NCBI GenBank assembly: GCA_900473175.1
Contig: UCKM01000005.1
Location: 196,190-260,189 of the forward strand
Length of the DNA: 64,000 nucleotides
Source: Hyphomicrobiales bacterium
GTDB taxonomy: Bacteria; Pseudomonadota; Alphaproteobacteria; Rhizobiales; Rhizobiaceae
Reading direction: 5' to 3'
The position numbers were made by a program, and so were the translations under genes. Shown piece after piece: positions 22,641-23,733 of this stretch. Within the stretch, counting starts at the first letter, position 1, and each line of letters starts with the position of its first letter. The notes under the pieces were generated by a model. It saw only the letters and a program-made list of their open reading frames with translations. It ran no database searches and was not told the origin of the DNA.

Positions 22641-22744
22641 TGACGTGTCTCAACTGACGGCAGTACCTGGCTGCAATTATGGCTCGATTCGGGCCATTAC
22701 CGCAAAGATACCGCTTGTGCGCCGCAACAATTAAGATCGATTAA

Positions 22745-22759
22745 TGTTGCAATGCAACA
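22745..22759. promoter_or_regulatory. 15-bp palindrome upstream of the DUF1127 gene
   Basis: TGTTGCA-A-TGCAACA is a perfect inverted repeat about 110 bases before the DUF1127 start and 100 bases from the divergent DUF2157 start. GCAACAATT also occurs twice here (near 22723 and 22754). It looks like a dimer operator; the binding protein is unknown. Confidence 0.4.
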
Positions 22760-22871
22760 ATTGCATAGCTGATCTGCAAACTTGGCTCTGCAACTTTTGA
22801 GGGTCATCACCTATCTTCAGTTCAACGATCAAGAGTGATCAACCGAACAACGAACCGAAATGGTGAATGAA

Positions 22872-23018
22872 ATGAACCTTATCCGCTCTTACAGCAACTG
22901 GCGCCGTTACCGTGACACGGTTTCCGAGCTGAACCGCCTGTCGACCCGCGAACTCAGCGACCTGGGCATTGCCCGCTCGGACATCCCGTTCGTCGCCAAG
23001 AAGTCGGCAGTCCGCTAA
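22872..23018 (+). CDS. DUF1127 (YjiS-like) small basic protein
   Basis: This 48-residue protein (MNLIRSYSNWRRYRDT..., then LSTRELSDLGIARSDI and the end KKSAVR) has the Arg-rich helix and RELxDLGIxRxxI motif of DUF1127. Start ATG 22872 fits the family and has GGTGA five bases upstream; ATG 22860 would add four residues. In Rhodobacter sphaeroides, the DUF1127 protein CcaF1 binds RNA and its gene is co-transcribed with CcsR sRNAs. The hairpins that follow here have the same motif. Confidence 0.93.
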   Translation: MNLIRSYSNWRRYRDTVSELNRLSTRELSDLGIARSDIPFVAKKSAVR

Positions 23019-23031
23019 TCAGAATATCGCC

Positions 23032-23145
23032 GGGGCTCATCCTCCTCCCGGAGCCTCCGCGATCAAAGACCGGCACTCCTCCTCCCAGCCGGTCTTTATC
23101 AAACGACACCCACCGCACCTCCTCCCGCGGTGGGTGTTGTTGTTT
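23032..23145 (+). ncRNA. Cuckoo/CcsR-type sRNA array with three CCUCCUCCC hairpins
   Basis: Fourteen bases after the DUF1127 stop come three stem-loops, each with CCTCCTCCC in its loop. Hairpin 1 is GGCTC/GAGCC (23034-23055). Hairpin 2 has a 10-bp stem AAAGACCGGC/GCCGGTCTTT (23065-23097). Hairpin 3 has an 11-bp stem ACACCCACCGC/GCGGTGGGTGT (23106-23137) followed by a T-rich tail that makes it a terminator. The anti-Shine-Dalgarno loops, the hairpin spacing and the upstream DUF1127 gene match the described cuckoo RNA/CcsR arrangement. Processing from the mRNA is expected from known cases, not shown here. Confidence 0.85.
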
Positions 23146-23157
23146 TCAGGCACCGCG

Positions 23158-23733
23158 CTATCGAACGCCGCCGTAGCCTCGTCCCTTCCATTCCGCCAAA
23201 CGCATGACATCCGGTGGGCCGCCTGCCGGCTCATACCAGGAATCGACCGCCCACAATGTGCCCGAACCGTCCTTCAACACTGCGGTGAAGTGCGGATAAC
23301 GGCCATCGATGAAGCTTCCGCGCGAATCGCGCCGGGCGACCGTATGAAATCGCAAAAGGCCTTCATCCTGCAGATAGCGCAGGAAATGGTCGGTATTGGT
23401 CGATTCATCGATGCAGTCCATCTGTCCCCTTTCGCGCCCCTTGCCAAATTCCATCTTCGGCCGGTCGGCTACGCCGATCACCTCGGTGCTGCGGCGCTCG
23501 AAGACCTGGACGGCGCGGCGCACCGCTGCACGTTCGGCTTCAGCGGACGTGTTGCCGCTTGCCATGATCGAGGCGATTTGGGCACGGTTGGCCGCCGTCA
23601 AGGTCACCGACGTCCGATAGGTACAGCCATAGCCGTGACAGACGCCGAACGTTTGCGCCAGCGCCATTGACGCTGTGCTGTACACGATGGCGCAAAGGAG
23701 GAGCGGCAGGGTGATCGATCTCGGTGCGGACAT
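23158..23733 (-). CDS. Conserved exported protein of unknown function
   Basis: This 191-residue protein has a signal peptide (LPLLLCAIVYSTASMALAQ). The mature part holds GVCHGYGC, MDCIDESTNTDHFLRYL and a C-terminal GTLWAVDSWYEPAG region. I do not recognise a characterised family. It converges on the sRNA terminator 13 bases away. Confidence 0.75.
   Translation of the reverse strand: MSAPRSITLPLLLCAIVYSTASMALAQTFGVCHGYGCTYRTSVTLTAANRAQIASIMASGNTSAEAERAAVRRAVQVFERRSTEVIGVADRPKMEFGKGRERGQMDCIDESTNTDHFLRYLQDEGLLRFHTVARRDSRGSFIDGRYPHFTAVLKDGSGTLWAVDSWYEPAGGPPDVMRLAEWKGRGYGGVR

Follow-up and report, generated by a model that had tools for sequence, protein, structure and literature searches.

The window, by which we mean the whole 64-kb stretch of DNA analysed here, carries a small DUF1127 gene followed at once by three hairpins that each expose CCUCCUCCC in their loop (23026-23141), and a putative LysR-type regulatory site with core promoter elements precedes the gene (Table 1). 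Three hairpins with CCUCCUCCC loops behind a DUF1127 gene had been reported in a preliminary description of this DNA and are confirmed by folding, motif search and unpaired probabilities; the array start placed there at 23032 is corrected slightly, in that the array is present and its first hairpin begins near 23026.

Table 1. Features of the DUF1127-ar14 locus, in window coordinates
Feature	Position	Strand	Basis or remark
Perfect inverted repeat TGTTGCA-A-TGCAACA, upstream half of a putative LysR-type site	22745..22759	+	read directly
Both published LsrB consensuses, overlapping (TGCA-N6-GCAT and GCAT-N3-TG-N3-T)	22753..22775	+	pattern search
Looser LysR-type box GCATAGCTGATCTGC	22763..22777	+	48 nt from box start to start of the -10
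Putative -35, CTGCAA, followed by a 17-nt spacer	22788..22793	+	inferred from conservation
Putative -10, CTATCT	22811..22816	+	conserved register
DUF1127 small protein gene, 48 aa	22872..23018	+	PF06568; codon differences against 17 relatives
ar14 (cuckoo) sRNA	23022..23142	+	RF02344, 114 bits
Hairpin 1, loop motif 23041-23049	23026..23063	+	folding, motif search, pairing probabilities
Hairpin 2, loop motif 23078-23086	23065..23097	+	folding, motif search, covariation, pairing probabilities
Hairpin 3, loop motif 23118-23126, probable terminator with broken U-tract	23102..23141	+	folding, motif, covariation

The small protein and the RNA array

The small protein matches PF06568 with 56 bits against a cut-off of 23.3, the searched translation including a 4-residue in-frame extension from a second ATG upstream at 22860. 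In the DUF1127 frame, 17 close relatives, which are not independent of one another, together differ from the window by 131 synonymous and 28 nonsynonymous codon changes, a ratio suggesting that the protein is probably under selection. The genome looks Phyllobacterium-like: among the carriers of exactly the same 48 residues are Phyllobacterium brassicacearum, P. bourgognense and P. sophorae. The RNA-binding role of DUF1127 proteins is disputed in the literature: RNA binding and sRNA maturation are reported for CcaF1, RNA binding is reported to have been looked for in Salmonella YjiS and none found, and the short DUF1127 proteins of Agrobacterium are described as interacting with PhoR, with CcaF1 able to replace them there (PMC12501420). 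For one S. meliloti DUF1127 gene, leader attenuation via an upstream ORF is reported (PMC12218461); the predicted leader of the window's gene measures only ~49 nt. We set aside the idea that the loops act back on the DUF1127 start, because the GGUGA ahead of the start codon, judged by eye, pairs poorly with CCUCCUCCC.

The array sits close behind the gene, the ar14 match starting 3 nt past the stop codon (23018) and the first loop motif at 23041. By cmscan, RF02344 is matched over its full length (model 1-123 of 123) at 114 bits, with a cut-off of 58.8 and an E value of 2.5e-20. The motif CCTCCTCCC has exactly three copies in the window, all of them on the + strand and in the array (0.41 expected), and at least three matches anywhere in the window were reached in 1/100 shuffles. 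The stretch 23019-23160 folds with -63.9 kcal/mol (z -7.35), a stability equalled by 0/200 shuffles, and the mean unpaired probability of loop motifs 1, 2 and 3 is 0.97, 1.0 and 1.0, respectively.

That the array ends in a terminator, as proposed earlier, is plausible from the U-rich stretch after hairpin 3; the terminator would be an imperfect one, the U-tract being interrupted by a G. A terminator scan of the window region returned none, and it was restricted to loops of 3-8 nt, so that a terminator at hairpin 3 is undetectable by that scan. Hairpin 3 may also terminate a convergent frame on the - strand (23158-23733; 191 aa, no Pfam match), whose end is 16 nt away.

Conservation of the array and its linkage to DUF1127 genes

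In the family sample, an ar14 match is present in 97 of 101 genomes, in 91 of them above the cut-off. When folded to minimum energy, 74/74 extracted arrays place each of their three CCUCCC cores in a hairpin loop, and three complete 9-mers are present in 61 of them and two in 13; the loop conservation among relatives that the preliminary description looked for is thus found. Hairpin 1 is too variable for column alignment or a consensus structure and was examined through single-sequence folding alone. For hairpins 2 and 3, 38 of the 74 arrays were compared: 97.9% of the cells pair, double changes occur in 19/21 pairs, and 170 cells are changed on both sides. None of 500 shuffles gave covariation as high, and the signal is lost when columns are slid by 1-3. 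Hairpins 2 and 3 combine covarying stems with invariant loops. With a full-length score above the cut-off, three hairpins with CCUCCUCCC loops and compensatory stem change in hairpins 2 and 3, the window's array belongs to ar14, and the cuckoo-type identity for which a covariance-model check had been proposed is upheld, also by the downstream motif count in 71/80 named relatives (best 80 of 234) given below.

In the class sample, the window's own genome was the single one of 289 in which RF02344 scored above its cut-off, and 14 others stayed below it under strict filters, which indicates that the Rfam model barely detects cuckoo arrays outside the family. At four loci of another alphaproteobacterial family (L180, L181, L194, L195), a DUF1127-like gene, recognised by eye, is followed by long arrays with six or more CCUCCC-type loops, below the Rfam cut-off. 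At three further alphaproteobacterial loci (L182, L183, L192; genomes of 1.7-1.9 Mb), CCUCCC hairpin arrays, also judged by eye, come after a different small ORF of ~40 residues. A Pfam scan of two of these small ORFs gave no match; possibly, cuckoo-like RNAs have a further type of small protein as partner here.

The linkage between gene and array was counted from both directions. Starting from the arrays, we used 87 loci, namely four copies from the window's own genome, 29 loci of the family search and 54 stretches chosen among the matches listed (101 genomes); a single genome may contribute several loci, tandem occurrences were joined into one and those inside a neighbour's flank left out. 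A DUF1127 stop lies less than 110 nt 5′ of the array at 37/87 loci, at 31 of these 37 within 20-33 nt; 14/87 have a DUF1127 gene elsewhere in the same-strand flank, and at 36/87 no DUF1127 gene was found on the same strand in the flank examined, a count in which L042 and L097, falling below the array rule, were entered as having none. Starting from the genes, 71/80 named DUF1127 relatives (best 80 of 234) carry three or more CCTCCC in the 200 nt past the stop, the remaining ones having two (7) or none (2); many of these loci are closely related and therefore not independent. In a control stretch 500-700 nt downstream, 0/80 of the same set have at least three. At L116, one of the two relatives without CCTCCC, a second DUF1127-like frame comes next and loops follow further on.

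The window's genome holds four ar14 copies and eight DUF1127 genes, from which, in 4.9 Mb, we estimate by our own arithmetic a chance of about one in ten thousand for the adjacency. Two of the copies lie directly behind a DUF1127 gene (the window and C24), and two have no adjacent one (C36, C16). Elsewhere in this genome (C25, L099) a DUF1127 gene near-identical to the window's has kept promoter and box, and the stretch 3′ of it looks like a decayed array. Mixed clusters were seen at L006, L007, L009, L010, L016 and L025, with arrays 5′ of the genes and, at L010, L016 and L025, also between DUF1127 genes. Two loci from records titled Xylophilus MAG and Bacillus subtilis (L120, L139) are by eye of Brucella/Pseudochrobactrum type; their titles probably reflect contamination or mislabelling.

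The predicted promoter region and its putative LsrB/VtlR-type box

Two LsrB consensuses are available in print, TGCA-N6-GCAT for NfeR1 (PMC10746234) and GCAT-N3-TG-N3-T at -61 to -49 of the AbcR1 promoter (PMC8844928). Their combination in front of the DUF1127 gene is the sole match in the 64-kb window (0.03 expected; one match in 3/100 shuffles), and when lengthened by one base the combined pattern occurs three times genome-wide, twice in front of near-identical DUF1127 genes. Given a transcription start predicted near 22823 from the sequence, GCAT-N3-TG-N3-T at 22763-22775 would lie at about -60 to -48, which fits the published LsrB position. Scanned over the 300 nt 5′ of the window's gene, the Brucella VtlR motif CAATGCAGCCATGCA shows four mismatches at best, and that place is away from the box; this argues against a literal Brucella-type VtlR site, while the two LsrB consensuses fit exactly.

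Among relatives, promoter regions were compared for 34 DUF1127-linked units, in which the first array follows a DUF1127 gene, and for 52 other units, defined by the lack of a DUF1127 gene in the 110 nt 5′ of their first array, some carrying one at another place; from L042 no promoter region was obtained, and that of L097 was placed by hand. The strict combined consensus stands before 15/34 DUF1127-linked and 7/52 other units (shuffled means 0.02 and 0.00) and before 18/80 named genes (best 80 of 234; shuffled mean 0.02), being absent from 19/34, 45/52 and 62/80, respectively. The other three ar14 promoters of the window's genome are without it and have looser forms instead. A looser 15-nt box, with at most one mismatch, precedes 27/34 DUF1127-linked and 28/52 other units (shuffled 0.7 and 0.75) and 61/80 named units (best 80 of 234; shuffled 1.75), and was not found in 7/34, 24/52 and 19/80; these box counts are partly circular because the box was derived from the same sequences, the strict consensuses coming from print. 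A slightly relaxed pattern is kept in 16/17 close relatives.

From the start of the looser box GCANNGCTGNNNTGC to the window's CTATCT there are 48 nt, and exactly this distance separates box and -10 in 27/27 DUF1127-ar14 units with a box and in 56/61 named ones (from the best 80 of 234), the -10 search having favoured offset 48 where ties arose; with shuffled tails the mean counts were 1.06 of 27 and 2.14 of 61. The other units with a box show 47 nt in 13/28 and 48 nt in 4/28. The putative -35 reads CTGCAA in the window and CTTCAA in many relatives, a sequence about equally close to RpoH1 CTTGAA and to the housekeeping CTTGAC, and the core promoter as a whole agrees to a similar degree with both consensuses, the RpoH1 and the housekeeping one, as given for S. 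meliloti.

The best-supported input of the unit is likely an LsrB/VtlR-type LysR regulator acting at the box. A candidate for such a regulator is encoded in the genome, where one of two ar15 (AbcR) copies adjoins a LysR gene; lsrB is published in a setting beside AbcR (ar15) (PMC8844928, PMC7143759), and from position and family only the gene is presumed to be lsrB. LsrB is reported to activate NfeR1 (PMC10746234) and to respond to oxidants in S. meliloti (PMC10746234, PMC8844928). VtlR is reported to bind the promoter of atu1667, whose authors left undecided whether it acts as protein or as sRNA (PMC7486931) and which is described as an ortholog of the VtlR-activated small-protein genes of Brucella, called DUF1127 (PMC12595884). 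In the literature searched, as far as its accessible parts extend, a link between LsrB/VtlR control and the DUF1127-ar14 unit was not found.

Proposed mode of action and relation to known systems

Based on the collective evidence, the likeliest reading of the locus, and one that we consider probable, is that a single LsrB/VtlR-activated transcript gives rise to a small protein and to a translation-blocking three-loop ar14 sRNA. An LsrB/VtlR-type LysR regulator would activate the promoter and the transcript would start near 22823; its 5′ part would be translated into the 48-aa DUF1127 protein and its 3′ part would constitute the ar14 sRNA, which probably comes free of the 3′ UTR by release or processing. 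Through CCUCCUCCC, each hairpin loop would pair with Shine-Dalgarno sequences of the GGAGG type in target mRNAs and so block their translation. The targets would probably be transporter mRNAs above all, by analogy with NfeR1, for which two transporter targets and redundant use of three motifs in translation inhibition are reported (PMC8844928, PMC7143759). Gene, array, covariation of hairpins 2 and 3, linkage and conserved promoter geometry come from the computation itself, and precedent in relatives suggests transcription, LsrB/VtlR binding and translation blocking. A genome search for the full loop complement before ATG gave six sites compared to none in the control, two of the six preceding plausible genes (mch and hydroxyisourate hydrolase), which is a weak signal.

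Compatible with this explanation, though rather doubtful, is a self-contained module in which the array is bound, and its processing guided, by the DUF1127 protein of the same unit: it would account for the tight conserved linkage and has a precedent in CcaF1 (PMC8625941, PMC10253847), yet arrays without an adjacent DUF1127 gene exist, and the reports on YjiS (no RNA binding) and on the Agrobacterium proteins (PhoR interaction) point elsewhere (PMC12501420). The sigma factor bears on a second alternative, that the unit is driven mainly by RpoH as in ccaF1-CcsR and serves a general stress answer, with the LysR box secondary. The window's CTGCAA (CTTCAA in relatives)-N17-CTATCT does resemble the published RpoH1 CTTGAA-N16-CCTATAT (PMC8844928), and of the 27 DUF1127-linked units that have a box, 21 end their -35 in A and 18 have a C in front of the -10; however, the two sigma consensuses overlap almost entirely, the named set (from the best 80 of 234) has the C in only 17/58 (with the A in 48/58), the LysR box stands in fixed register, and relatives of each half of the unit are reported to depend on LsrB/VtlR (PMC10746234, PMC7486931). 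We regard RpoH as the main driver as unlikely. The stress control suggested in the preliminary description calls for modification: the best-supported input is the LsrB/VtlR-type LysR box, and an RpoH-like core promoter is possible.

An array with its own promoter inside the DUF1127 gene, making it a separate sRNA like NfeR1, appears distinctly improbable. Two of the four ar14 copies of the genome manage without an adjacent DUF1127 gene and NfeR1 has its own promoter (PMC10746234, PMC7143759), but the window's only combined LsrB site lies upstream of the DUF1127 gene; an E. coli-type scan of 22641-23200 found no sigma-70-like site, which weighs weakly since the same scan misses the predicted promoter too. 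That the hairpins do no more than stabilise and terminate the DUF1127 mRNA at its 3′ end, as might be suggested by hairpin 3, which is followed by a U-rich stretch and is 16 nt away from where the convergent frame ends, is very improbable, for such a role has no need of three invariant loops, which are fixed while the stems of hairpins 2 and 3 covary, and 36/87 array loci have no DUF1127 gene in the flank examined.

The preferred reading of one transcript with two products has a wider counterpart, which we put forward tentatively as a serious possibility: loci of dual function across the Rhizobiaceae in the broad sense, in which a frozen promoter serves both protein and sRNA, the sRNA explains some of the effects credited to the protein, and NfeR1-type genes are the same unit without ORF. 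The locus itself is ordinary for its group, and the arrangement of DUF1127 gene and array has already been described in related bacteria. What is added here is the likely input and the conserved promoter geometry before the DUF1127-ar14 unit, as read from sequence comparison. The locus thereby joins the LsrB/VtlR control of DUF1127 proteins and sRNAs with the cuckoo/ar14 RNAs, subjects treated apart in the accessible parts of the published accounts. If the shared unit is real, DUF1127 deletions that also remove or uncouple the 3′ array alter two regulators together, and protein-only and RNA-only mutants would separate them; the conserved geometry makes a protein-plus-sRNA regulon directly testable.

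The locus is a further case of the published cuckoo/ar14 family and of CIN1-type pairing. Cuckoo RNAs are defined by two to four adjacent hairpins with CCUCCUCCC in every loop, a further mark of the family being accumulation as a small RNA with repression of mRNAs via the loops, and the three-hairpin family, also known as ar14, goes back to Reinkensmeier et al. 2011 (PMC3927594). With its members (RF02344; S. meliloti SmelA075 and SmelC397, the latter being NfeR1) the window shares three hairpins, CCUCCUCCC loops, variable stems, several copies per genome and an LsrB-type promoter box; NfeR1 is a separate sRNA with its own promoter, whereas the window's array seems to be the 3′ end of the DUF1127 transcription unit. 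VtlR-activated atu1667 of A. tumefaciens and its Brucella orthologs have in common with the window a small DUF1127 gene (by orthology) and an LsrB/VtlR box upstream, in a comparison made by description; an array 3′ of the gene goes unmentioned in the accessible part of the published account. The pairing of a DUF1127 gene with CcsR-like sRNAs has already been named CIN1 locus, with ccaF1-CcsR1-4 of R. sphaeroides as the type, and the window has in common with it a short DUF1127 gene directly 5′ of several like hairpins on the same strand. The CcsR RNAs are reported to be co-transcribed with the gene and processed by RNase E with help from the DUF1127 protein, and the ccaF1-CcsR unit is described as RpoHI/RpoHII-driven (PMC10253847). 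The match to CcsR claimed at the outset is one of architecture, compared by description, of a DUF1127 gene and then hairpins; R. sphaeroides has four sRNAs, described as RpoHI/RpoHII-driven, the window three hairpins and an LsrB/VtlR-type box.
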